The notes under the pieces were generated by a model. It worked only from the letters and a program-made list of their open reading frames with translations. It was not told the origin of the DNA and ran no database searches. Positions 553-13,118 of a stretch of DNA of 37,437 nt are shown one piece after another. The translations under genes were made by a program, and so were the position numbers. The stretch is from the NCBI GenBank assembly GCA_021784115.1, contig JAJXTE010000012.1, positions 1-37,437 of the forward strand. The letters are read 5' to 3'. Within the stretch, counting starts at the first letter, position 1, and each line of letters starts with the position of its first letter. This DNA comes from Pseudomonadota bacterium (GTDB lineage Bacteria; Pseudomonadota; Gammaproteobacteria; Burkholderiales; Thiobacillaceae).

Positions 553-2625
553 TCAGGGCAGTTTTTGCTTTGTAAGCAGGGCCAGCAGTTCCACCTGCGC
601 GCTGTAGGGCTTGGCCCGCCGCTTGGCGCGGCGGCGGAAGCTGCCGTCGGAGAGCATGTCCCAGGCCTGCACGTTGTCGCGCAGGTAGGGCTTCAGCCCT
701 TCGGCGATCACGCGCTTCTTCAGCTTGGGGTTGAGGACGGGGAAAGCGGTTTCGATGCGGCGGAAGAAGTTGCGGTCCATCCAGTCGGCCGACGACAGGA
801 AGACCTTCTCGTCGCCGCCGTTTCTGAAATAGAAGATGCGCGTGTGTTCGAGGAAGCGACCGACCACCGAGCGCACCCGGATGTGCTCCGACAGTCCGGC
901 GATGCCGGGGCGCAGTGCGCAGACCCCGCGGATGATGAGGTCGATCTTCACGCCGGCCTGTGAGGCGGCGTAGAGGGCGGCGATGACCTGCGGCTCCAGC
1001 AGCGCGTTCATCTTGGCGATGATGGCGGCTGGCTTGCCGGCGGCGGCGAGTTCGGCTTCATGGTTGATCGCGGCGACAACTTCGCTGTGCAGGGTGAACG
1101 GCGACTGCCACAGGCGCTTGAGCTTGCCCGCCTTGCCGAGGCCGGTGATTTGGGTGAACAGGCTGCCGACGTCTGCGGTGATGGCCTCGTCGCAGGTCAG
1201 GAGGCCGAAATCGGTGTACATCCGCGCGGTGCGGGCGTGGTAGTTGCCGGTGCCCAGGTGGGCGTAGCGGCGCAGTTCGCCTTCCTCGCGGCGGATGACC
1301 AGCGCCAGCTTGGCGTGGGTCTTGTGGCCGACCACGCCGTAGACGACATGGGCGCCGACCTCTTCCAGTTTGGCCGCCCAGTTGATGTTGGCTTCCTCGT
1401 CGAAGCGCGCCAGCAGCTCGACCACCACGGTGACTTCCTTGCCCGACTGCGCGGCGCGGATCAGCGCCTGCATCAGCTTGGAATCGGTCCCGGTGCGGTA
1501 CACGGTCTGTCGCATGGCGACGACGTGGGGGTCGTCGGCGGCCTGTTCGATGAAGTCGATCACCGGCTGGAAGGATTCGAACGGGTGGTGCAGAAGGATG
1601 TCGTTTTTGCGGATATGCGCAAAGATGTCGTCCAGCTTGGCCAGCCGCGGCGGCAGGGCAGGGACGAAGGGCGCGAACTTGAGGTCGGGACGGTCGACCC
1701 AGTCGGGCACCTGCATCAGACGCACCAGGTTCACCGGGCCGCGTTCCTGGTAGAGGTCGTCGGCCTCGAGTTCGAACTGTTCCAGCAGGAAGGCTGCCAT
1801 CGAAGGCGAGCAGTTGTCGGCCACCTCCAGCCGCACGGCCGCACCGAAGTGCCGCTGTGGCAGTTCGCCCTGCAGGGCCTGGCGCAGGTTCTTGGTTTCC
1901 TCGTCGTCGACGAAGAGGTCGGAATTGCGGGTGACGCGAAACTGGTAGCAGCCCTGCACCGTCATCCCGGCAAACAGCTCGCCGACGTGGGCGTGCAAGA
2001 TCGACGACAGAAACACGAAGCCGTATTCGCAGCCGGCAATCTCTTCCGGCAGGCGAATGACGCGTGGCAGGGAACGCGGCGCCTGCACCACGGCGGCGCC
2101 TGAATTGCGGCCGAAGGCGTCGCGGCCGGACAGCTCGACCGCGAAATTAAGACTCTTGTTCAGCACGCGCGGGAAAGGGTGCGACGGGTCGAGCCCCACC
2201 GGCGTCAGCACCGGTATCAGCTCGCGGAAGAAGTAGTCGCGTATCCACCCCGCCTGGGCTTCGTTCCACTGTGTACGGCGGATGAAGTGAACGCCGTGTG
2301 TGGCCAGCTCGGGAATGATCTCCTTGTTGAAGAGTTCGTACTGCCGGGCGACCAGCGCGTGCGCTGTCTCTGATACCGCGCGAAACTGCTGGCGCGGCGT
2401 GAGGCCGTCGGGCGAGCGCTGGGTGGAGTTGGCGCGGATCTGTTCCTTCAGCCCCGCGACGCGCACCTCGAAGAACTCGTCCATGTTGCTCGACACGATG
2501 CACAGGAAGCGCAGGCGTTCCAGCAGGGGCATGGACGGATCGTCGGCCTGGGCCAGCACGCGGCGCTGGAAGGCGAGAATGCCGAGCTCTCGGTTGATGA
2601 GGGTATCGGGGCTGGGCAGATTCAT
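553..2625 (-). CDS. ppk1: Polyphosphate kinase 1
   Basis: PPK1 reversibly transfers the terminal phosphate of ATP to inorganic polyphosphate. With the start at 2625 the protein has 690 residues, the usual PPK1 length, and opens MNLPSPDTLINRELGILAFQ. The open frame continues upstream to 2709, but that would overlap the Pho box and the divergent gene and adds 28 residues not expected in the family. The N-terminal block with SSNMDEFFEVRVAGLKEQ is typical. The phosphohistidine site region GHKTHAKLAL lies around residue 437 and the second conserved histidine block YAHLGTGNYHARTA around 455, close to His435 and His454 of the E. coli enzyme. It is divergent from a CYTH-CHAD gene followed by sixA, a polyphosphate-linked setting. 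The Pho box upstream implies induction under phosphate starvation. No strong ribosome site is visible. Confidence 0.96.
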   Translation of the reverse strand: MNLPSPDTLINRELGILAFQRRVLAQADDPSMPLLERLRFLCIVSSNMDEFFEVRVAGLKEQIRANSTQRSPDGLTPRQQFRAVSETAHALVARQYELFNKEIIPELATHGVHFIRRTQWNEAQAGWIRDYFFRELIPVLTPVGLDPSHPFPRVLNKSLNFAVELSGRDAFGRNSGAAVVQAPRSLPRVIRLPEEIAGCEYGFVFLSSILHAHVGELFAGMTVQGCYQFRVTRNSDLFVDDEETKNLRQALQGELPQRHFGAAVRLEVADNCSPSMAAFLLEQFELEADDLYQERGPVNLVRLMQVPDWVDRPDLKFAPFVPALPPRLAKLDDIFAHIRKNDILLHHPFESFQPVIDFIEQAADDPHVVAMRQTVYRTGTDSKLMQALIRAAQSGKEVTVVVELLARFDEEANINWAAKLEEVGAHVVYGVVGHKTHAKLALVIRREEGELRRYAHLGTGNYHARTARMYTDFGLLTCDEAITADVGSLFTQITGLGKAGKLKRLWQSPFTLHSEVVAAINHEAELAAAGKPAAIIAKMNALLEPQVIAALYAASQAGVKIDLIIRGVCALRPGIAGLSEHIRVRSVVGRFLEHTRIFYFRNGGDEKVFLSSADWMDRNFFRRIETAFPVLNPKLKKRVIAEGLKPYLRDNVQAWDMLSDGSFRRRAKRRAKPYSAQVELLALLTKQKLP

Positions 2626-2679
2626 GATGGGTTTATTGGTGGTGTGCTTCAATGATAAGGGCCCGCGCTCAACGCTGAC

Positions 2680-2697
2680 ATGACAGTTATATGACAA
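2680..2697 (-). promoter_or_regulatory. Pho box (PhoB site) between ppk1 and CYTH-CHAD gene
   Basis: On the minus strand the sequence reads TTGTCAT-ATAA-CTGTCAT. This is two direct heptamers with a four-base spacer, differing from the classical CTGTCAT-N4-CTGTCAT Pho box at only one base. It points toward ppk1. A possible -10, TATCAT (2657-2652), lies 22 bases further down, one helical turn more than usual. The box overlaps the upstream candidate ATG (2691) of the divergent gene, so it may serve both. Confidence 0.75.
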
Positions 2698-2708
2698 CGC
2701 CGCATCCA

Positions 2709-4256
2709 ATGGAAATCGAGCTCAAGCTGGCGCTGCCGCCGGGGCAGGTTGCGGGCTTCATGAAGCGGATGGCCCGACGGCGCAGCGTGCCGGTGCAGCA
2801 GGACCTCGTTACCCGTTATTTCGACACACCGGACTTTGTCTTGAGCGGGCAGGGCGTGGCGCTGCGCGTGCGGCGGGCGGGGCGGCGCTGGCTGCAGACC
2901 CTGAAGACCGAGGGTGAGCGGCAGGGCGGGCTGTCGCGGCGCGTCGAATTCGAGATGCCGGTGCGGCGCGGCGCGCCGGACTGGAACCGTTTTCCGCCCG
3001 AGGCGGTGGCATATGTGTCCGAGGCGCTGCGTGCGCAATTGGTTCCGGTGTTCGAAACGCGCTTTCACCGCACTGCCTGGCGGGTCGCCGGCAAGCGCGG
3101 CGCGCAGATCGAGGTGGCGCTCGACGTCGGCGAGGTGATTACCCTATCGGGCATAAACGCCGGCGAACGCCGCCAGCCGCTTTGCGAGATCGAGCTCGAA
3201 CTGAAATCCGGCCAGCCCGATGCGCTGTTCGCGCTGGCGCTGGAGTGGGCCGGCGCGTTCGACTGCCTGCCGTTCGACATCAGCAAGGCCGAGCGCGGCG
3301 TGCGCCTGGCGCACGGCGAGGAGCCGGCGCCGCTGAAATCCGTGCCGCTGGTGCTGGACGACGGCATGAGCGTGGAGGAAGGATTTGCCGCGATCTGCCA
3401 GGCGTGCCTTGCGCAATTTCAGGCCAATCTGCCCGGCGTGCTGGCGTCGGACGACATCGAATACGTGCATCAGGCGCGGGTGGCGCTGCGGCGGCTGCGT
3501 GCGGCGCTGCGGCTGTTTCGCGACGTGTGCGTGCTGCCGGACGACCTGCTGGCCGGCCTGGATGCGCTGGCGGCCGCGCTGGGCCCGGCGCGGGACTGGG
3601 ACGTGCTGTGCGACGAAACCCTGCCGGCGATCGCGCCGCGTTACCCCGACGCCGATACCTGGCAGCGTGGCATGCAGGCGCTGGAGCGGCGCCGCCTCGC
3701 GGTGCGGACGGCGATGCGGGAAGGACTGAACCAGGCGCACCCGGGTGCGTGGTTGCTGGCATTCCAGCGCTGGCTGTTGCAGCATGGGTGGCGTTCATAT
3801 CGCGGGGAGGGGACGCACCCTTCAGGGCGGACGGCGCCGGAGGCTCAGCGTTTCGACCAGTTGGCGCCGCTGGACGCATGGGCACGCCGGGCCCTGCGCA
3901 CAGGGCATCGTCCCATCGTTCGCGGCGCACGCGATTTCAGCAGACTGGCACCGGCGCAGCGCCATGCCCTGCGCATCGCGATCAAGCGCCAGCGTTATGC
4001 AGCCGAGTTCTTCCAGGGACTGTTCGACGGCAGGCGGCAGGCACGTTATCTGGCGGTGCTGCGTGACGCCCAGGACAGCCTGGGACAGGCCAACGACGCG
4101 CATATCGCATCGGGCCTCCTGGTCACCGCGCAGGCGGAGACGGGCCCGATGGGCGCCTTCGCTCTCGGCTGGCTGGCGGCAAGACAGGCGGAGATGGCCG
4201 GCGGCGGGAGCGCCAGGCAGGTGCGCGCGTTCCTGAAATCGAAGCCCTACTGGTAG
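2709..4256 (+). CDS. CYTH-CHAD domain protein (inorganic triphosphatase / polyphosphate-binding)
   Basis: About 515 residues in two parts. The N-terminal CYTH domain (residues 1-200) opens with MEIELKL, the ExExK signature that binds metal-triphosphate. RYFDTPDF, LRVRR and QTLKT follow, all typical tunnel strands. The C-terminal CHAD domain (about 225-510) is helical and rich in Arg and His, with the segment VHQARVALRRLRAALRLF; such domains bind polyphosphate. The architecture equals E. coli YgiF, an inorganic triphosphatase. The start is uncertain: ATG 2709 places the CYTH motif at the N-terminus as in relatives, whereas ATG 2691 lies inside the Pho box. Neither has a good ribosome site. Divergence from ppk1 and linkage to sixA suggest a polyphosphate-related task. 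Confidence 0.9.
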   Translation: MEIELKLALPPGQVAGFMKRMARRRSVPVQQDLVTRYFDTPDFVLSGQGVALRVRRAGRRWLQTLKTEGERQGGLSRRVEFEMPVRRGAPDWNRFPPEAVAYVSEALRAQLVPVFETRFHRTAWRVAGKRGAQIEVALDVGEVITLSGINAGERRQPLCEIELELKSGQPDALFALALEWAGAFDCLPFDISKAERGVRLAHGEEPAPLKSVPLVLDDGMSVEEGFAAICQACLAQFQANLPGVLASDDIEYVHQARVALRRLRAALRLFRDVCVLPDDLLAGLDALAAALGPARDWDVLCDETLPAIAPRYPDADTWQRGMQALERRRLAVRTAMREGLNQAHPGAWLLAFQRWLLQHGWRSYRGEGTHPSGRTAPEAQRFDQLAPLDAWARRALRTGHRPIVRGARDFSRLAPAQRHALRIAIKRQRYAAEFFQGLFDGRRQARYLAVLRDAQDSLGQANDAHIASGLLVTAQAETGPMGAFALGWLAARQAEMAGGGSARQVRAFLKSKPYW

Positions 4257-4325
4257 TTTCGGGCATGCTGGCTACCCCACTGCAGGATTCCCAATCAGAC
4301 ACGTATTTGAGGAAAGGAAACCCGG

Positions 4326-4778
4326 ATGGAACTGATCTTGTGGCGACACGCCGAGGCCGATGATGCGGTCCCCGAGCTCAAGCGCGAACTCACCGACAAG
4401 GGCCGCAAGCAGGCGGCGCGCATGGCAGACTGGCTCAATCCGCGGCTGTCGCAGGACATCCGGATTCTGGTGAGCCCTGCCACCCGCGCGGTGCAGACCG
4501 CGCAGGCGCTGGGACGCGAATACGAGGAGGCGACGGCGATGGGGCCGGGGGCCAGCGCAAAAGACCTGCTGGGCGCCGCAGGCTGGCCGGATGCGGTCAG
4601 CCCGGTGCTGATCGTCGGCCATCAACCCACGCTGGGTCAGGTGGCGATGCAACTGCTGGCGGGACAGACCGGTGACCTGACAATCAGGAAGGCGAGCGTC
4701 TGGTGGTTCCATGGTCGCGAGCGGGGTGGACAATTGGAGGTGGTCTTGCGCGCTGTGGCCACGCCTGACTGGTTATAA
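4326..4778 (+). CDS. sixA: Phosphohistidine phosphatase SixA
   Basis: A 150-residue histidine-phosphatase-superfamily protein of SixA length. The catalytic RHG-type motif is LILWRHAEAD at residues 3-12, with His8 as the expected phospho-acceptor. Further motifs are LVSPATRAVQTAQAL and the late histidine block VLIVGHQPTLGQVA. SixA removes phosphate from histidines of phosphorelay or PTS proteins in the cytoplasm. The ATG follows AGGAAAGG at a slightly long spacing. It lies 69 bases after the CYTH-CHAD gene and is probably co-transcribed with it. Its stop codon is embedded in the TATAAT that may drive fliF. The family is clear; the substrate in this organism is not. Confidence 0.88.
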   Translation: MELILWRHAEADDAVPELKRELTDKGRKQAARMADWLNPRLSQDIRILVSPATRAVQTAQALGREYEEATAMGPGASAKDLLGAAGWPDAVSPVLIVGHQPTLGQVAMQLLAGQTGDLTIRKASVWWFHGRERGGQLEVVLRAVATPDWL

Positions 4779-4853: not shown

Positions 4854-6188
4854 ATGCCGGGTTGGTTGAGCAGTCTGCGCGACCTGATCGCGGAGGCGAG
4901 CCCATTGCGCCGCCTGATGCTTGCCCTGCTGGTGCTGGTGCCGCTGGCGGCACTGGCCGGAGCCTATGTGTGGTTCAATCCGCCTGCCTATCGCGTGCTC
5001 TACGCCCATCTGTCCGACCGGGCGGGTGGCGAGGTCATCGCCGCCCTCGAGCAGCTCGACATTCCCTACCATCTGTCCGCCGCCGACGGCACCATCGAGG
5101 TGCCGGCCGATCAGTTGCACGCAGCGCGCTACCGCCTTGCCGCGCGCGGCCTGCCCCGCTCCGATGCCGACGCGCAGGATGAGGTCGATCGCGCGCCACG
5201 CTTCGGCGCGTCGTCGCTGGAGGAGCAGCAGCGCTATCAGCGCGCGCTCGAAACCGATCTGGCGCGCTCGATCCAGTCGCTGGAAGCGGTCGAGCTGGCG
5301 CGGGTCCATCTTGCCTTGCCCAAGGTCTCGCCCTTCCTGCGCGACGCGCCGCCGGCCACCGCCGCGGTGCTGGTGCGGCTGCGTCCTCATGCGCAACTGT
5401 CGACCGAGCAGGTGACGACGATCCAGACCCTGGTGGCGGCCAGCGTGCCGCGTCTGAAGCGGACTGACGTGCAGGTGCTCGACCCCCGCGGCGTCCTCCT
5501 GGGCGGCTCGGCGCCCGAAGTGGTGCAGTCGCGCCGGCAGGCGCTGGAACAGGATCTGGCGCAGCGGGCGCTCGCCATATTGACGCCCTGGCTCGGCAAG
5601 GACCGCGTGAGCGTGCAGGTGACGGCCACGCTGGAGGACAGCGATGTCCAGCAGACCGTGGAACGGGTACGCAATGTCGTGGTCGGCGGCGAGGCGCGTC
5701 CGCTGGAAAGAACCGTGCGCACCACGCATTCGCCGGAAGGCCGCATTCAGCGGGTGAACGCCATCGTGATTCTCGGATTCGACGCGAGCGCCGACGAACT
5801 CGCGCGTGCAGGACAACTGGCCCGCCAGGCGCTGGGCCTGGTGCCCGTGCGCGGCGACACGCTGAATGTGTATGCGCTGCCCGCTGCGGCTCCCAAGGTG
5901 CCGACCGGGGCTGCCGTTGCCAGTGCGCCGGCACCCATCCCCCAGGTACAGCAGGTGAGTCCGCCGCCGGAGACGCGCGGCCTCTTCGACATTCGGCTCG
6001 GGACGCTGGTGGCTGCGGCGGCGACCCTGCTCCTGCTCGGCCTGGGCGTCGTGCGGCGCAACCGGCGGACATCCGCCGCGCAGCCGCCCATCGAGGATTT
6101 CGATGCCGAGATCGACGCCGCCCGCAACCAGGCGCTGGCCAATCCGCGCGTGGCGGCGGATGTCATCAAGCTGTGGATGCGTGCATGA
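4854..6188 (+). CDS. fliF: Flagellar MS-ring protein FliF, compact form
   Basis: FliF builds the inner-membrane MS ring that houses the export gate. This protein has 444 residues, against roughly 550 in enteric FliF. A first membrane helix (about 21-41) leads to ring-building domains with PAYRVLYAHLSDRAGGEVI and LARVHLALPK. The last periplasmic segment includes RGDTLNVYALP. A second membrane helix (about 382-400) precedes a cytoplasmic tail, ARNQALANPRVAADVIKLWM, the FliG-binding end. Most of the shortening lies between SDVQQTVERV and LERTVRTTHSPEGRIQRV (residues 262-300), where usual FliF carries the long beta-collar insertion. It heads a ten-gene overlapping cluster; a GAGG ribosome site lies at 4842-4845. 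fliE, normally just upstream, is absent. Confidence 0.9.
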   Translation: MPGWLSSLRDLIAEASPLRRLMLALLVLVPLAALAGAYVWFNPPAYRVLYAHLSDRAGGEVIAALEQLDIPYHLSAADGTIEVPADQLHAARYRLAARGLPRSDADAQDEVDRAPRFGASSLEEQQRYQRALETDLARSIQSLEAVELARVHLALPKVSPFLRDAPPATAAVLVRLRPHAQLSTEQVTTIQTLVAASVPRLKRTDVQVLDPRGVLLGGSAPEVVQSRRQALEQDLAQRALAILTPWLGKDRVSVQVTATLEDSDVQQTVERVRNVVVGGEARPLERTVRTTHSPEGRIQRVNAIVILGFDASADELARAGQLARQALGLVPVRGDTLNVYALPAAAPKVPTGAAVASAPAPIPQVQQVSPPPETRGLFDIRLGTLVAAAATLLLLGLGVVRRNRRTSAAQPPIEDFDAEIDAARNQALANPRVAADVIKLWMRA

Positions 6189-7150
6189 GCCAGGCCGGCA
6201 TCGAAAAATCCGCCGCGCTTCTGCTCGCACTCGGCGAAGAGGCTACGGCGGCCGTATTTCGCTATCTGAGCCCGCTGGAGGTGAGCCGGCTCGGCAGCGC
6301 CATGCGCGAACTGGATGTGCTGCCGCGCGAACGCGTGCGCGCGATCCTGCGCGATTACGCCGCGGAGGCGGCCGAACAGACAGGGTTCGCGGCAGATACC
6401 GAGCGTTTCCTCGATGAGACGCTGAAGCAGGCCTTTCGCCCGGAGCGCGCGCAGGCCATATTGCAGCGCCTCGGTGCGTCCGGTGCGCAGGCGCTGGAGA
6501 AACTGGCCTGGCGCGAGCCGGCGGAGATTGCCGGGCTGCTGGAGGCGCAAGCGCCCCAGCTGATTGCAGCGATGGCCTCGCAATTTCCACGCGACGTCGC
6601 CGCCGCGGTGCTTGAACTGCTGCCCGGCAAGACGCGTGCGGACACCCTGCTGAGCCTGGCACACAGCGATGCACCCAGCGCCGACATGCTGCGCGACCTG
6701 GACGACTGGCTGGCGGGTCTCGAATCCAACGCGCCGCCGCAGGGCGAAGCGGCGGTGGCCGGCCTGCTGGGGCAGATGAGCGCGGGCAGTGCCGCCGCCG
6801 CGCTGAGCCAGCTCGACCAGAACGATGCGGACCTGGCCGCGCGCCTGCGCACGCGCAATCTCGCTTTCGAAGACCTGGCACGGCTGCCCGAGGCCGGTCG
6901 CAAGGCTTTTCTGCGCAACGTCGGCGCGCGTACCCTGCTGCATGCCTTGAAGGGCAGCGACCGACGCGTGCTTGACGCCCTGACCGCCGTGATGAGTCCG
7001 ACGGCCGCGCAGCGCATGCGCGTCGACCTTGACACCCTGGGGCCTGTGCCGGTGACCGCAATCCAGGCCGCGCAGGACGAAGCGGGCGCGAGCCTGCGAC
7101 GGCTGGCGGCAGAGGGCGCAATCGAGTTCCCCGACGAGGAGGCGGCATGA
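6185..7150 (+). CDS. fliG: FliG-like motor switch protein, degenerate FliM-binding motif
   Basis: FliG links the MS ring to the switch and bears the torque helix. The ATG at 6185 overlaps the fliF stop (ATGA) and gives 321 residues, near the normal 331; ATG 6173 is less likely. The N-domain IEKSAALLLALGEE and LSPLEVSRLGSAM is typical. The C-domain keeps LLHALKGSDRR and GPVPVTAIQAAQ. By alignment from memory with E. coli FliG, the FliM-binding EHPQ is QAPQ and Arg160 is Ser. The MFxF motif reads NLAF. In the torque helix Lys264 and Asp289 are kept, but Arg281, Asp288 and Arg297 become Thr, Val and Pro. Family membership is clear; a normal switching role is doubtful. Confidence 0.88.
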   Translation: MSQAGIEKSAALLLALGEEATAAVFRYLSPLEVSRLGSAMRELDVLPRERVRAILRDYAAEAAEQTGFAADTERFLDETLKQAFRPERAQAILQRLGASGAQALEKLAWREPAEIAGLLEAQAPQLIAAMASQFPRDVAAAVLELLPGKTRADTLLSLAHSDAPSADMLRDLDDWLAGLESNAPPQGEAAVAGLLGQMSAGSAAAALSQLDQNDADLAARLRTRNLAFEDLARLPEAGRKAFLRNVGARTLLHALKGSDRRVLDALTAVMSPTAAQRMRVDLDTLGPVPVTAIQAAQDEAGASLRRLAAEGAIEFPDEEAA

Positions 7151-7761
7151 GCACAGAGGACGACACGAGGCTCGATAATCCCACCGCTTTCGAACAGTGG
7201 GAGGTAGTGGAACTGGCCGCGTCTGCCGGCGAGGATGCCTCGCGCCAGCCCGACCCCGAGGCCGAACGGGCCGCGCTGCGCGAGGCCGCGCGTGCCGAGG
7301 GCTACGCCGAAGGCATCGCCGCCGGGCGGGTGGAGGGGGAGCAGGCGTGCAGCCGCATGAAGCAGTTGGCGGAGAGCTTTTCCTCGACGCTCGACAGCCT
7401 CGATTTCCGCCTCGCCGACATGGTGCTGGAACTGGCGCTCGACGTCGCGCGCCAGGTGGTGGCGGGCGAATTGTCGGCACGGCCTGAGCGCATCCTCGAT
7501 GTGGTCAATCTGGCGCTGAAGCAGATGGCGGAAACCAGTCGCGAGGCGCGCCTGCTGCTGAATCCGGACGATGCCGCGCTGGTGCGCCCGCACCTCGAGC
7601 AGGTGCTCGACAAGAACCGGCTGCGCATCGTGGAAGATGCGCGCATCGTTCGCGGCGGCTGCCTGATCGAAACCGCGCAGGGCGACCTCGACGCCACGCT
7701 TCCGGCGCGCTGGCGCCAGGTGGTGCAGGTGCTCGGCTCCAACCAGAACTGGCTTGAATGA
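7147..7761 (+). CDS. fliH: Flagellar export ATPase regulator FliH
   Basis: A 204-residue soluble protein overlapping fliG by an ATGA junction. Near the N-terminus FEQWEVVEL carries the conserved tryptophan region that docks FliH to the export apparatus. The segment [16 protein letters not shown] (about 51-66) is the GxxxG repeat region characteristic of FliH/SctL helices. The C-terminal half, including [30 protein letters not shown] and [16 protein letters not shown], matches the family domain that binds the N-terminus of FliI. FliH forms the stalk dimer regulating the ATPase at the inner-membrane export gate. Position and partner fliI agree. Confidence is high. Confidence 0.92.
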
Positions 7762-9155
7762 TGGACCGCATCGTCCGCCTGCGCGAATACCTGGCTGACT
7801 GCCGCCGCGCGGTGAGCTGGGCGACGCCGATCGCGACCAGCGGGCGGCTGACGCGGGTGTCCGGGCTGGTGATGGAGGCAGTCGGGCTGCGCCTGCCGGT
7901 GGGCAGCCAGTGCCACATCCAGATTCCCGGCGGACAGAGCATCGAGGCCGAAGTGGCCGGGTTTTCCGGCGACCGGCTGTTCATCATGCCGGCCACCGAC
8001 ATCTATGGCGTAATGCCTGGCGCGCGGGTGATTCCCGACAACCCGATGGCGGCGCAGCCGCCGCGCCTGGGGATGCGCTACATTCCGCGCCGCCGCGCGC
8101 AGGACCGGGTGCGGCAGGTGCCGGTCGGCGAGGCGCTGCTGGGGCGCGTGCTCGACGGCGCCGGGCGACCGCTCGACGGCCTCGGCCCGTTGTCGCTGGA
8201 ACGCCGCGTGCCCTTGTACAGCCGTCCAATCAATCCGCTGGAGCGCGCGCCGATCCGTCAGACGATGGATGTCGGCGTGCGCGCGATCAACGGCCTGCTG
8301 ACGGTGGGGCGCGGGCAGCGGCTCGGCCTCTTCGCCGGCAGCGGCGTCGGCAAGAGCGTGCTGCTCGGCATGATGGCGCGAATGACAGAGGCCGACGTGG
8401 TGGTGGTCGGGCTGATCGGCGAGCGCGGCCGCGAGGTCAAGGAATTCATCGACCGCATCCTCGGCAGCGAGGGCATGGCGCGGGCAGTGGTGGTGGCGGC
8501 GCCGGCCGACCATCCGCCGCTGATGCGACTGAACGGCGCGGCGTATGCGATGTCGATCGCCGAGTATTTCCGCGACCAGGGCAAGCACGTGCTGCTGATC
8601 ATGGATTCGCTCACGCGCTACGCGATGGCGCAACGCGAGGTGGCGCTGGCGATCGGCGAGCCGCCCGCGACCAAGGGCTATCCGCCATCGGTGTTCGCCA
8701 AGCTGCCGCAGCTCGCCGAGCGCGCGGGCAACGGCCGCAGCGGCAGCGGCTCGATCACGGCGTTCTTCACCGTGCTCATGGAAGGCGACGACCAGCAGGA
8801 CCCGATCGCCGACGCCGCGCGTGCGATCCTCGACGGGCACATCGTGCTTTCCCGCGATCTGGCCGACGCCGGGCATTACCCTGCGATCGACATCGAAGCC
8901 TCGATCAGCCGGGCGCAGCCCGACCTGCTTTCCGACGACGCACTGGAACGAACGCGCCGCTTCAAATATCTCTATTCGCGCTACATGCGCAGCCGCGATC
9001 TCCTGGCTGTCGGCGCCTACGTACCGGGCGCGGATCTGGTGCTGGACGAGGGAGTGCGGCTGTTTCCCAAAATGCAGGGTTATCTGATGCAGGGCATGCG
9101 TGAACGCGCGCCGCTGGATGCGGCCCGCGCCGGACTCGACGAGGTGCTCGGATGA
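7758..9155 (+). CDS. fliI: Flagellum-type export ATPase FliI
   Basis: A 465-residue F1-like ATPase energising substrate unloading at the type III export gate. The N-terminal beta-barrel is followed by the Walker A loop [11 protein letters not shown] (about 191-201) and the [14 protein letters not shown] block typical of FliI/SctN. Then come the Walker B-like strand [20 protein letters not shown] and [20 protein letters not shown]. The C-terminal helical domain includes [12 protein letters not shown] and [14 protein letters not shown]. All catalytic motifs look intact, so this part of the apparatus is probably active, in contrast with the altered FliG. The start ATG overlaps the fliH stop; a second ATG follows at once at 7761. 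Confidence 0.96.
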
Positions 9156-9604
9156 GACCGTTCGCGCTGGCCCGGGTGCTGCAGCTCGCCGAGCGTCGGA
9201 GCGAGACGCTCTCGCGCACGGTGAAGCTCGCACATGGCGTGTGGCTGCGCGCACGCGGCCGCCAGGTGCAGCTGACCGCACTGCGTGACGCCCACATCGC
9301 GCGGATGGCGGGCCGACTGCGTGGCGGCGTAACGGCAGAACAGCTGCAGGAGATGAATCGTCTGCAACACGCTCACGCGGCGGAGATGCAGGCGACACGG
9401 GAAGCCATCGACGCCGCGCAGCGGGATTGGCAGGCGCGACTGTCCGAATGGATGCAGGCCGAGCAGCGGGTCAAGGCATTGCGCCTGCTGGAACAGCGCC
9501 ACCTGGCGCAGGCCGCCATCCTGCAGCGACGCGTCGAGCAGCGCGATCACGACGAGCTGGTGGAACTGACGCATCGGCGTGACGCGGGACTGAGGGGACG
9601 CTGA
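9152..9604 (+). CDS. fliJ: Flagellar export chaperone/stalk protein FliJ
   Basis: A 150-residue, largely helical, charged protein beginning [20 protein letters not shown]. It has regular heptads through [20 protein letters not shown] and a C-terminal segment [10 protein letters not shown]-like in character, typical of the FliJ two-helix coiled coil. FliJ sits inside the FliI hexamer and contacts FlhA. Sequence conservation in this family is low, so the call rests mainly on helical character, length and the position right after fliI (ATGA overlap). Confidence 0.82.
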
Positions 9605-10068
9605 TGCAGCTGCTTGAGCTCACGCCCGCGGAGATCGCTTTCCTGTCGGCGCCTTCTTCGGCGCCGGACGGCTTGCAGACGCGCCTGACCCGCAAGCTTG
9701 CTGCGACGCTGAGCGCGCGCCTGCGCCTGCCGGTTCAGGCGACGGCGCAACCGGCACCTGCGCCCGTCGACGCGCCGGTGACGCCCGTCTGGCAGCCCGA
9801 TGCCGTGCTGGCCAGCCTGTGGCTGACACGCCGTCTGGGTGGACGCCACGTGGCAGGGGCAGGTTCCTTTGTTCCCGCCACGCTCGTCCGCACGCTCGAT
9901 GCCGTGCTGGCGGAGTGCTGGCTGGATGCGCCGCCGCAGGCCGCGCTGCCCGCTGCGCTTGCGTGGCGCATCACCACCGATCTCGCGCAGGCAACGGTCG
10001 CCGTGCAGGTGCCGCGTTTCCCAACCGACATGACGCGCTGGGCGCAGGAGGTCATCCGGCATGGCTAG
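9604..10068 (+). CDS. Unrecognised protein in the fliK-fliN position of the fli cluster
   Basis: 154 residues, not recognised. It starts at the ATG sharing one base with the fliJ stop (TGATG) and overlaps fliO by eight bases, so it is translationally tied to the export genes. The N-terminal third ([17 protein letters not shown], then a basic helical stretch) leads through an Ala/Pro-rich linker (about 43-60). A compact domain follows with LASLWLTRRLGG, SFVPATLVRTLDAVLAECWL and a C-terminal TVAVQVPRFPTDMTRWAQEV. There is no signal peptide, membrane segment or recognisable SpoA (FliN/FliM C-terminal) domain. Its place is where fliK, fliL, fliM and fliN normally stand. It could be a remnant or replacement switch/adaptor component, but that is position-based inference only. 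Confidence 0.75.
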   Translation: MQLLELTPAEIAFLSAPSSAPDGLQTRLTRKLAATLSARLRLPVQATAQPAPAPVDAPVTPVWQPDAVLASLWLTRRLGGRHVAGAGSFVPATLVRTLDAVLAECWLDAPPQAALPAALAWRITTDLAQATVAVQVPRFPTDMTRWAQEVIRHG

Positions 10069-10396
10069 ATTCGTCGCGGCAGGTGGATTGCTGCTGATTC
10101 CGTCCTGGGCGCTGGCGGCAACCGATCCCGCAGGCGGCATGCTCACCGTGCTGCTGAGCCTGGTGCTCATCCTCGGCGGCTTCGTAGGGGTCGCCTGGTT
10201 TGTCCGGCGCTATCTGCCGGGCATCGGTGCGCAAGGCGTGGTCAAGGTGGTGGGCACCACGGCGGTGGGCGCGCGCGAACGGGTGGTGGTGGTCGAGGTC
10301 GACGACACCTGGCTGCTGCTGGGGGTGGGCGGCGGCAACGTGCATCTGCTGCATACATTGCCGAAGCCGGCTTCGACGCAGGAGCACGCACGGTGA
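10061..10396 (+). CDS. fliO: Flagellar biosynthetic protein FliO
   Basis: 111 residues with a short hydrophobic N-terminus ending in SWALAATDPA. One strong membrane helix follows (MLTVLLSLVLILGGFVGVAW, about 27-46), then a cytoplasmic beta-rich tail with VKVVGTTAVGARERVVVVEV and DDTWLLLGV. This tail pattern is the FliO hallmark. FliO assists assembly of the FliP pore of the export gate. It overlaps the preceding gene by eight bases and fliP by four (GTGA). The position directly before fliP is the canonical one. Confidence 0.9.
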   Translation: MARFVAAGGLLLIPSWALAATDPAGGMLTVLLSLVLILGGFVGVAWFVRRYLPGIGAQGVVKVVGTTAVGARERVVVVEVDDTWLLLGVGGGNVHLLHTLPKPASTQEHAR

Positions 10397-11121
10397 GGGC
10401 GATTCTGCTGCTGCTGGCACTGGGCCTGAGCGCGCCGGCCTGGGCGGCGGATGCCAGCGTGCCCCTGTTGAGCGTGACGCCCGGCGTGGGCGGGCAGGTG
10501 ATCGGCGTGCCGGGGGCGAGCCTGCCGTGGCTGCTGCTGTTCCCGTTCTTGCCCGCGTTGCTGCTGGCGTTCACCGCCTTCACCCGGATTGCCGTGGTGC
10601 TGTTTCTGCTGCGGCAGGGCCTGGGCAGCCCGACCGCGCCACCCAATCTGGTGCTGACGGGGCTGGCGGTTCTGCTGACGATATTCGTGATGTCGCCGGC
10701 GCTGAAGACCATCAATGCCGAGGCTTACCAACCCTATCTGGCCGGCGCAATGAATTTCAACGACGCCGCCGGGAAGGCCGCGTCGCCCCTGAAGAACTTC
10801 ATGCTGCGGCAAACCCGGGCTGACGATCTGAGCCTGTTCATCGGGGACGACAAGACCATCGATCCAAAAAAGGTCGACAGTGTGCCGCTGGCGGCGCTGG
10901 CGCCGGCCTTTCTCACCAGCGAGCTCAAGACCGCCTTCCAGATCGGCTTCATGGTGGTGCTGCCGTTCCTGGTGATCGATCTGGTGGTCGCCGCCGTGCT
11001 GACCGCGCTCGGCATGATCATGCTGCCGCCGCAGCTGGTGTCGCTGCCCCTGAAACTGCTGCTGTTCGTCACGGTCGATGGCTGGCATCTGCTGGTCGGC
11101 TCGCTGATCGGGAGCTTCTGA
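10393..11121 (+). CDS. fliP: Flagellar export gate protein FliP
   Basis: A 242-residue polytopic membrane protein with a GTG start overlapping the fliO stop. A cleavable-looking signal (MRAILLLLALGLSAPAWA) is followed by the FliP signatures FTAFTRIAVVLFLLRQGLG, PPNLVLTGLAVLLTIFVMSP, TSELKTAFQIGFMVVLPFLV and GMIMLPPQLVSLPLKLLLF. FliP pentamers form the core of the FliPQR export pore in the MS ring. Motifs are well kept and the length is normal. The export gate therefore looks functional, unlike the altered switch part of the cluster. Confidence 0.96.
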   Translation: MRAILLLLALGLSAPAWAADASVPLLSVTPGVGGQVIGVPGASLPWLLLFPFLPALLLAFTAFTRIAVVLFLLRQGLGSPTAPPNLVLTGLAVLLTIFVMSPALKTINAEAYQPYLAGAMNFNDAAGKAASPLKNFMLRQTRADDLSLFIGDDKTIDPKKVDSVPLAALAPAFLTSELKTAFQIGFMVVLPFLVIDLVVAAVLTALGMIMLPPQLVSLPLKLLLFVTVDGWHLLVGSLIGSF

Positions 11122-11375
11122 TGGAAGGCATCGCCCGCGACGCGCTCTGGCTGCTCATGCTGATCGCCGCGCCGGTGCTGCTGGCGGGGCTGCTGACGGC
11201 ATTCGCCATCAGCCTGTTCCAGGCTTCCACGCAGATTCTCGAACCCACGCTCTCATTCGTCCCCAAGCTCGTCGTCGTGCTGATCGTGCTCGCGCTGCTG
11301 GGCAGCTGGATGGGCGGGCAGCTGGTCGAGTTTGCGCGCAGCATGCTGACCGATTTCCCGGGCCTCGTCGAATGA
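11121..11375 (+). CDS. fliQ: Flagellar export gate protein FliQ
   Basis: 84 residues with two membrane helices. The stretch SLFQASTQILEPTLSFVPKL carries the FliQ consensus. The second helix, VVVLIVLALLGSWMGGQLVE, is typical. FliQ surrounds the FliP-FliR pore of the type III export gate. Its ATG shares one base with the fliP stop. It is slightly shorter than the usual 89 residues but complete. Confidence 0.94.
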   Translation: MEGIARDALWLLMLIAAPVLLAGLLTAFAISLFQASTQILEPTLSFVPKLVVVLIVLALLGSWMGGQLVEFARSMLTDFPGLVE

Positions 11376-11382
11376 GCGGGTC

Positions 11383-12132
11383 ATGCCGCTGACCGAGGCA
11401 GGCCTGTCAGTGTGGCTATTCGCCTTCGCGCGGCTGGCGGGGTGGACGGCGCTGGATCCCCTGACCGGCCGCCTGCCGCTGCTGCTGCGGCTGTTCCTGG
11501 CAGCCGTGCTGGCAGCCGTGCTGGCGCCGGGCCTGGCCACCAGTGCGATCGCGCCCTTCAGCGTGCAAGGCATGCTGGCACTGGGCATGGAGGTCGCGTG
11601 GGGCGCCGCGCTGGCGCTTTGCGTGTGGCTGGTTTTCGCGGCGGTGAGTGCGGCGCTGGTGTGGACTGGTCACACCGCCACCGGCGGCCTGCTGGCCCTG
11701 ACCGCCGACCAGGCCGTCCCGGCGGACGCCGCCTGGCGCGCCCTGGCCGGATGGCTGGCGGCGATGGCGTTTCTGGGCGCGAGCGGCCACTTGCTCATCG
11801 TTCACGCTTTGCGTGACAGCTTCGCCGCCATGCCGGTTGCCGTCCTGCCTGCCGCAATGGATGTTCGCCAGCTGGCCGAAGCCGGCAGTTGGCTGTTTGC
11901 GACCGGCATCCAGCTGGCCTTGCCCTTGCTGGCCCTGGCGCTGCTGGTCCAGCTGGCAGTCGGCATCGTGGCGCGCACCACGCCGGGCATGGATATGTTC
12001 TCGGTCGGGCTGGGCGTGGCGGCATTGGGCCTGGTGGCCGTCTGGATCGCGGCGGTGCCGCTCCTTGCGCACGGCGTCGGCCTGGGCATCGAACATCTGA
12101 CGGGCTGGCTGGGCCGGCTCGCGTCGAGATAA
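11383..12132 (+). CDS. fliR: Flagellar export gate protein FliR
   Basis: 249 residues, mostly hydrophobic, with about six membrane segments. The N-terminal VWLFAFARLAGWTALDPLTG and the later HLLIVHALRDSFAAMPV and PALLALALLVQLAVGIVAR-like region fit FliR, the third pore subunit. Seven bases separate it from fliQ, the only non-overlapping junction of the cluster. A 12-base unit repeats in tandem at 11497-11520, encoding LAAVLAAV. The cluster ends here: flhB, which often follows fliR, is absent and dapA comes next. Confidence 0.92.
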   Translation: MPLTEAGLSVWLFAFARLAGWTALDPLTGRLPLLLRLFLAAVLAAVLAPGLATSAIAPFSVQGMLALGMEVAWGAALALCVWLVFAAVSAALVWTGHTATGGLLALTADQAVPADAAWRALAGWLAAMAFLGASGHLLIVHALRDSFAAMPVAVLPAAMDVRQLAEAGSWLFATGIQLALPLLALALLVQLAVGIVARTTPGMDMFSVGLGVAALGLVAVWIAAVPLLAHGVGLGIEHLTGWLGRLASR

Positions 12133-12227: not shown

Positions 12228-13118
12228 ATGGCAGAAATGAACACGGCCAGAGGAAGCCTGGTTGCGATTGTCACCCCCATGACGGACGACGGCGCGCTCG
12301 ATCTCGATGCGCTGCGCCGCCTGGTCGACTGGCACATCGCAGAGGGGACGGACGGGATCTGCATTGTTGGCACCACCGGCGAATCGCCCACGGTCAGCTT
12401 TGACGAGCACTGCCTGCTGATCCGCACCACGGTCGAACAGGTTGCCGGACGGGTGCCGGTGATCGCGGGCACGGGCGCGAATTCCACCACCGAGGCGATC
12501 GAACTCACCGAATGCGCCAAGGCAGCCGGCGCGCAGGCCGGCCTGTCGGTCGTGCCCTACTACAACAGGCCGACGCAGGAAGGCCTCTACCAGCACTACA
12601 AAAAGATCGCCGAGGCGGTCGACCTGCCGCTGATCCTCTACAACGTGCCGGGGCGCACGGTCGCCGACCTGTCGAACGACACCACGCTGCGCCTGGCCGA
12701 AGTGCCCGGCGTCATCGGCATCAAGGACGCCACCGGCAGCATGGAGCGTGCGGCCGATCTGCTGCGCCGCGCGCCGAAGAATTTTTCGCTCTACAGCGGC
12801 GACGACGCCTCGGCGATGCCCTTCCTGCTGCTGGGCGGCCACGGCGTGATCTCGGTGACTGCCAATGTGGCGCCGAAACTGATGCACGACATGTGCGTGG
12901 CGGCGCGCGAAGGGAACCTGGCGCGCGCGCGCGAACTCAACAACGCATTGCTGCCGCTGCACAGCAAGCTGTTTGTCGAGGCCAACCCGATTCCGGTCAA
13001 GTGGGCGTGCGCGGAGCTGGGACGGATTCCGTCCGGTCTGCGTCTGCCCCTCACCCCGCTGTCGGCCGCACTGCATGACACGGTGCGTGATGCGATGCGT
13101 CACGCCGGACTGATCTAG
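12228..13118 (+). CDS. dapA: 4-hydroxy-tetrahydrodipicolinate synthase
   Basis: DapA condenses pyruvate with aspartate semialdehyde, the first committed step to lysine and diaminopimelate. The 296-residue protein has the family length. The Schiff-base lysine is K166 in GIKDATG and the catalytic tyrosine is Y138 in LYNVPGRT, the same 28-residue spacing as Tyr133/Lys161 of E. coli. GTTGESPT and [17 protein letters not shown] are also present. The start at 12228 is preceded by GGCGGAAACAAG; an alternative ATG is 12237. The 95-base gap after fliR holds AT-rich sequence (TAGAAT at 12155, TATAAG at 12209), so an own promoter is likely. bamC follows, as dapA-nlpB do in E. coli. Confidence 0.96.

Follow-up and report, generated by a model that had tools for sequence, protein, structure and literature searches.

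What is a flagellar gene cluster for when the genes that normally interrupt it are missing? The question is raised by a 37,437-nucleotide stretch of DNA from the Thiobacillaceae (the window; contig C155 of the genome that we call G000), which carries at positions 4854-12132 of its plus strand ten genes running from fliF to fliR. The original prediction, made from the letters of the window, offered two answers: the missing genes lie elsewhere in the genome, or the cluster encodes a flagellum-derived secretion device without a standard C-ring. We consider it probable that the flagellar export engine was long ago exapted, apart from today's flagellum, into a non-rotating export device of the inner membrane, and that the cluster is one of its two loci. 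By sequence, the system comprises FliF2, FliG2, FliHIJ, FliOPQR, FlhA2 and a FlhB2 that is truncated, with FlhF2, a remnant of FlhG and FliA2 as its control module (Table 1). Some sulfur-oxidising bacteria, in Thiobacillus and a sister genus, carry this set besides or instead of a normal flagellum, probably as a separate secretion device; that it secretes is something we infer.

The ten-gene cluster is genuine and unbroken, and purifying selection acts on it. Its open reading frames (ORFs) overlap at eight of nine junctions, as originally predicted, by 16, 4, 4, 4, 1, 8, 4 and 1 bases; the sole exception is a 7-base gap between fliQ2 and fliR2, and an alternative ATG start of fliG2 at 6185 would shrink its overlap with fliF2 to 4 bases. 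Nine of the ten ORFs score above Pfam cut-offs (FliF, G, H, I, J, O, P, Q and R). FliF, FliI, FliO and FliP also pass the NCBIfam flagellar equivalog cut-offs, and the best NCBIfam matches of FliG, FliH, FliJ, FliQ and FliR are flagellar models, with scores under the cut-offs. The ratio of nonsynonymous to synonymous substitution rates (dN/dS), measured between the window's genome and two relatives, lies at 0.01-0.44 across all 15 genes of the system, with values of 0.056-0.059 for FliI, 0.07-0.10 for FlhA2, 0.01-0.03 for FliA2, 0.35-0.43 for gene X and 0.28-0.44 for ORF Y, compared with 0.14-0.15 for the neighbouring dapA. On these values, decay is rejected for the lineage. A decaying flagellum remnant would account for the absence of many flagellar parts and for the damage to fliF2 in three congeners (G011, G008 and G017), but we give this explanation almost no credence in view of the low dN/dS in every gene, the order and content kept in 15/15 loci of the cluster and 15/15 of the second locus described below, and the presence of the same system in a sister genus.

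Flagellar parts were sought throughout the 2.23-Mb assembly of G000 (155 contigs, 91.3% complete). The assembly contains no match to Flg_bbr_C (rod/hook), SpoA (FliM/FliN), flagellin or FliE, the search covering these families and leaving aside FliK, FliL, MotAB, FlgH, FlgI and secretins; each family search was positive in 4 of 14 control genomes. G000 holds one FliF, one FlhA and one FlhB, the latter two being FlhA2 and the truncated FlhB2 of the second locus. The full flagellar complement that the original prediction imagined elsewhere, alongside a single fliF and fliG, was not found in G000. The first of the two answers thus fails in G000 for Flg_bbr_C, SpoA, flagellin and FliE, the families for which we reject it; the same negatives support the second. 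A further congener, G015 (97% complete), carries only the short FliF together with type-2 FlhA and FlhB, and has no SpoA, FliE or flagellin match (Flg_bbr_C was searched in G000 only). G029, G035 and G266, the last from the sister genus g28, have the short FliF only, FliF being the sole flagellar family searched there. The system persists without a detected flagellum in at least two genomes, G000 and G015, in which it remains constrained. This makes it very unlikely that the system serves the ordinary flagellum, say in its regulation or as a seed for its placement, even though both kinds of FliF occur in 26 of 36 congeners and relatives of FlhF, FlhG and FliA could act on a flagellum.

The remaining export and control genes are supplied by a second locus on contig C153 (L002) of the same genome. 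Its five genes occur in identical order beside a malic-enzyme-like gene in all 15 congener loci examined (L114-L128), which were selected for carrying FlhA2 or FlhB2, and an ordinary flhB-flhA-flhF-flhG-fliA locus lies elsewhere in two relatives (L129 and L130). The NPTH autocleavage site is found in none of 16 FlhB2 sequences, compared with 2/2 ordinary FlhB. ORF Y, which has no Pfam hit, retains an N-terminal DQAxxLR motif in 16/16 sequences and a P-loop in 0/16; DQAxxLR is described as the enhancer helix by which FlhG stimulates the FlhF GTPase (PMC12826062). Both operons begin at sigma-70-like promoters, as judged by eye. Because no gene follows fliA2 in its operon, FliA2 probably drives genes elsewhere. 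As a separate observation, the ordinary flagellar region of many congeners contains a separate ORF whose match to FlhB is confined to the C-terminal part (family positions ~262-335; e.g., G011:C1:1682392-1682601), and no such ORF is found in G000 or G015.

The ring, switch and gate proteins are altered at specific positions. FliF2 measures 443-456 residues against 537-542 in ordinary FliF, and its collar span is 29-31 residues in 18 FliF2 sequences (31 in the window) against 94-96 in four ordinary ones. The AlphaFold2 (AF2) model of FliF2 is of middling quality (pLDDT 73.3, pTM 0.36), and its top Foldseek matches are FliF rings. In 19/19 FliG2 sequences, T and P replace the torque arginines that E. 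coli FliG has as R281 and R297, where 4/4 ordinary FliG have R; the places of K264 and D289 are unaltered. The first two residues of the FliG2 EHPQ motif are changed in 19/19. The FliP2 hinge reads FTAF or FSAF in 19/19 and MTSF in 4/4 ordinary FliP; deletion of MTSF in Salmonella FliP is reported to stop export (PMC12403130). The losses of the collar, the torque arginines and the NPTH domain of FlhB fit each other.

Gene X, the one ORF of the cluster lacking a Pfam or NCBIfam hit, is probably the middle domain of FliM, lacking the CheY-binding peptide and the SpoA domain. When 18 X members were scanned one by one against Pfam, just two weak, unrelated hits were obtained. Fold comparison was applied to X after a sequence-profile link to FliM failed. 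The AF2 model is good (pLDDT 85.7, pTM 0.77); in the Foldseek ranking, places 1-13 go to FliM or flagellar C-ring/rotor entries and places 14-19 to CheX or CheC-like ones. X is taken as a FliM middle domain because of this fold match and its position in the operon. If X is a stripped FliM, the originally predicted lack of fliM holds only in part, while the predicted absence of fliE and fliN, and with them SpoA, stands for G000 as searched. X was identified by reading in the more distant loci L160 and L161, and both sequences align with the others. It is present in 5 of 399 genomes sampled from the order, all five within the window's family, and a search of viral contigs gave no relative.

Among 36 genomes of the genus (G000-G035), the short FliF is present in 33, the ordinary FliF in 28 and both in 26; the ordinary protein is ~40% identical to the short one over residues 18-273. 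G009 has neither kind, G025 the ordinary kind only, and G026 has no short FliF match, yet contains X. With FlhA and FlhB typed by score, coverage and neighbourhood, 25 genus genomes include 22 with type-2 FlhA, 21 with type-2 FlhB and 24 with the short FliF, G009 having none. The flanks named in the original prediction, sixA and dapA, are confirmed by position: in 15/15 congener loci (L034-L048) all ten genes follow sixA, and dapA comes next in 12, other genes taking its place in L043, L044 and L048. More distant loci (L149, L160 and L161, with FliF 66, 45 and 38% identical) have the same locus after ppk, a CHAD-like gene and sixA; dapA follows the cluster in L149 and L160, and the L161 sequence ends within fliP. 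In a survey of 70 genomes from 12 genera of the family, short-FliF matches above 350 bits were found in 15 of 16 genomes of the window's genus and in 8 of 9 of g28 (one partial), so the system recurs in this sister genus; FliF matches in the other 45 genomes (10 genera) are at most 262 bits, the range of ordinary FliF. The contig scan for relatives covers the best 80 (78 loci) of 540 matches, and statements on spread beyond the family rest on the order and family surveys. Rows were omitted for the FliF of L035 (frame broken) from alignment A2 and the collar measurement, for X of L048 (run of N) from A1 and A4 and of L151 (a 51-aa fragment) from A5, and for the FliF of L141, L148, L153 and L159 (the last with no usable reference) from A6.

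The origin of the set was addressed with a FliI tree built from 33 of 63 rows, with no Myxococcus sequence included. The reduced-system FliI is placed among flagellar FliI, although several deeper forks are weak. Ten reduced-system rows group at 99/100 and four ordinary Thiobacillus rows at 98/99, and the two groups are not sisters. The tree therefore indicates that the reduced set predates the genus and is not a recent duplicate of today's Thiobacillus flagellum.

Neither the search for a FliA2 regulon by promoter pattern nor the genes beside the cluster gave a cargo gene. Two candidates, a zwf-like gene after fliR (L038, L040, L042 and L047) and a CHASE2-like gene before sixA (L041, L042 and L047), were rejected as missing in other relatives. 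The CHASE2-like gene stands between the CHAD-like gene and sixA (L041:13668-15605, L042:2973-6543 and L047:3658-7234) and is preceded in two of these loci by a LysM/FecR-like gene, all by eye. G000 has a single strict FliA-type site, ~60 bases upstream of an ORF whose start resembles a signal peptide (L135:763-1527, on G000:C36), possibly by chance. The cargo might instead be unrecognised axial proteins of the system's own, exported to build a new type of appendage or a periplasmic rod. The full gate and ATPase are retained, and the very constrained sigma-28-type FliA2 ends its operon as in a machine with late cargo genes, both of which such an exporter would explain; FliE, Flg_bbr_C and flagellin were however not found in G000, and changes affect the collar and the MTSF hinge, whose roles are in rod assembly or gate opening, so we regard this explanation as quite unlikely.

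Upstream of the cluster, window positions 553-4778 hold a polyphosphate-type group of ppk (minus strand), a CYTH/CHAD-like gene (plus strand) and sixA; the group stays beside the cluster in most of the relatives' loci fetched. These genes and dapA were named by eye, and orthologs of the two flanking genes occupy matching places in relatives. In Betaproteobacterium SCN2 (L160:16949-19357), fliQ2 and fliR2 are separated by three genes that encode, by eye, a coiled-coil protein (178 aa), a cytochrome-c-like protein (123 aa) and a flavoprotein similar to sulfide dehydrogenase (434 aa).

Table 1. Genes of the reduced flagellar-type system and its flanks in G000. Positions are those of the window unless contig C153 is given.
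Feature	Position	Strand	Product and basis
sixA	4326-4778	+	Upstream flank
fliF2	4854-6188	+	Short MS-ring protein, 444 aa; RBM1-RBM3 and FliG-binding-like tail kept, collar insert reduced; Pfam YscJ_FliF 2.1e-52, NCBIfam fliF 161.7 bits (cut-off 129.75)
fliG2	6173-7150	+	325 aa; three FliG Pfam domains; NCBIfam fliG 138.5 bits, below cut-off 226.7
fliH2	7147-7761	+	ATPase regulator; Pfam FliH 2e-38
fliI2	7758-9155	+	Export ATPase, P-loop kept; NCBIfam FliI_clade1 642.2 bits (cut-off 619.1)
fliJ2	9152-9604	+	Pfam FliJ 4.7e-16
gene X	9604-10068	+	154 aa; probably a lone FliM middle domain without CheY-binding N-terminal peptide or SpoA
fliO2	10061-10396	+	NCBIfam FliO 70.4 bits (cut-off 55.25)
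fliP2	10393-11121	+	Hinge motif FTAF replaces MTSF; NCBIfam fliP 238.1 bits (cut-off 217.45)
fliQ2	11121-11375	+	Pfam Bac_export_3 2.3e-26; NCBIfam fliQ 87.5 bits, just below cut-off 88.9
fliR2	11383-12132	+	Pfam Bac_export_1 7.6e-30; NCBIfam fliR 89 bits, below cut-off 168.6
dapA	12228-13118		Downstream flank
flhB2	C153 10735-11499		Ends ahead of the autocleavage domain
flhA2	C153 11496-13574		
flhF2	C153 13571-14743		
ORF Y	C153 14733-15395		Occupies the flhG place; FlhG remnant
fliA2	C153 15399-16109		Last gene of its operon

Read as an export device, the system might work as follows. FlhF2, held back by the DQAxxLR helix of the remnant, would position the rings of FliF2 within the inner membrane, perhaps at a pole. 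FliG2 and the mini-FliM encoded by gene X would form a small ATPase platform in place of a rotating C-ring, and FlhA2 and the FliPQR gate, with the ATPase, would move the predicted cargo through the inner membrane and on into either the periplasm or a partner machine. FliA2 would probably turn on the cargo genes. Such a device would have no rotation, no flagellar rod or hook and no FlhB-dependent substrate switch. We are evenly divided over a wider form of this proposal, in which the exaptation was separate from the injectisome branch and, in the Thiobacillus lineage, turned a whole second export engine into an independent organelle, equipped with a sigma-28-type factor and a placement module derived from FlhF/FlhG; the rod and the base of the C-ring, the torque residues and the collar, and the substrate switch would have been lost in matching steps, and lineage-specific cargo would pass through a rodless ring, possibly polar, touching minerals or other cells.

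Several observations weigh against the proposed export device, in which export, placement and cargo are predictions. The missing C-domain of FlhB might also mean that there is no export whatever. The fold matches of gene X to FliM are weak (best E 3.0e-3, none reaching 0.001; TM ~0.5), and the profile comparison of X with FliM by hhalign fails (probability 0.1, E 0.73), the only local match being the FliM GG motif. FliA-type promoters (TAAA-N14-16-GCCGATA) are no commoner than reversed controls (1 vs 1 in G000 and 1 vs 3 in G015), and the two sites do not precede matching genes. The fliF2 gene of G011 (single contig; L035:7690-8966) stops at 381 aa, its tail lying in another frame and the FliG-binding end being lost; that of G008 is split in two pieces and that of G017 has one inner stop. 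G003 and G021 carry FliF2, but no type-2 FlhA was found in them. At the completeness and fragmentation of G000, flagellar loci could be absent from the assembly, and because ordinary FlhA and FlhB occur in G017 and G021, neither of which has a match for ordinary FliF, FliF alone can mislead on the presence of a flagellum.

If the proposal is true, the system is a natural experiment on what the flagellar export engine needs after giving up rod, hook, switch and rotation. Three questions would become testable: whether export needs the FlhB C-domain, which roles the collar of FliF and the middle domain of FliM have where there is no rotor, and how many times a flagellum became another machine, for which the described case is the injectisome branch with a Myxococcales side line (PMC3459982). 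Because G000 and G015 keep the system and have no detected flagellum, it could be studied there without interference from an ordinary one. No description of the present system was found in the open-licence literature searched, and an earlier mention may exist elsewhere.

The system shares with the flagellum homologues of FliF, FliG, FliHIJ, FliOPQR, FlhA, FlhB, FlhF and FliA in flagellar gene order. It differs in the absence from G000 of the FliE, rod/hook, SpoA and flagellin families, and in its truncated FlhB, a FliF without most of the collar insert, a lone FliM middle domain and an FlhG without P-loop. With the injectisome, a non-flagellar type III secretion system (NF-T3SS), it shares a homologous ring, ATPase and gate, and FliP2 passes one broad EscR/YscR/HrcR subfamily model of NCBIfam (186.5, cut-off 179). 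In contrast, FliI2 reaches 482 bits against a SctN cut-off of 604.75, FliP2 169.7 against 208.6 for SctR, and FliF2 78.6 against 161.95 for SctJ. No needle or secretin gene stands beside the cluster in the window or the fetched relatives, a statement made on neighbouring genes, as no family search for secretin, needle or SctD was made.

A closer relation to the CORE proteins, reported as a platform for nanotubes (PMC7176660), or to the hat-shaped inner-membrane structure that Kaplan et al. linked to the flagellar gate (PMC9380563), is conceivable, since the gate proteins FlhA, FlhB, FliP, FliQ and FliR are all encoded here, each in type-2 form. FlhA, FlhB and FliPQR would then organise the membrane together with FliF2, and not perform flagellar-type export; the hat-shaped structure can spare the FlhB C-domain (PMC9380563), as would hold here. 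We consider this unlikely. It leaves unexplained the strongly constrained FliHIJ as well as FliG, the mini-FliM and the sigma factor, and the hat-shaped structure is reported not to be built of FliF (PMC9380563). Those structures, as reported, use the gate of the ordinary flagellum, whereas in the present system the gate belongs to a second set, which includes an ATPase, a ring and control genes of its own.

For an export device of the kind proposed, the nearest analogue is the needleless type III secretion system of Myxococcus (T3SS*). Both would combine an export apparatus in the inner membrane with an ATPase platform and lack parts of a needle, rod, secretin or filament (PMC3459982, PMC12075869), and the Myxococcus T3SS* is reported to work with a Tad pilus in predation (PMC12075869). 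Abby and Rocha place the Myxococcales system on the injectisome branch, without FlgBCDEK, FliE, FliG, FlgH and MotAB, and suggest protein translocation as its function (PMC3459982). The system described here differs in having a FliG, and its FliI, FliP, FliF and FliO pass flagellar cut-offs.

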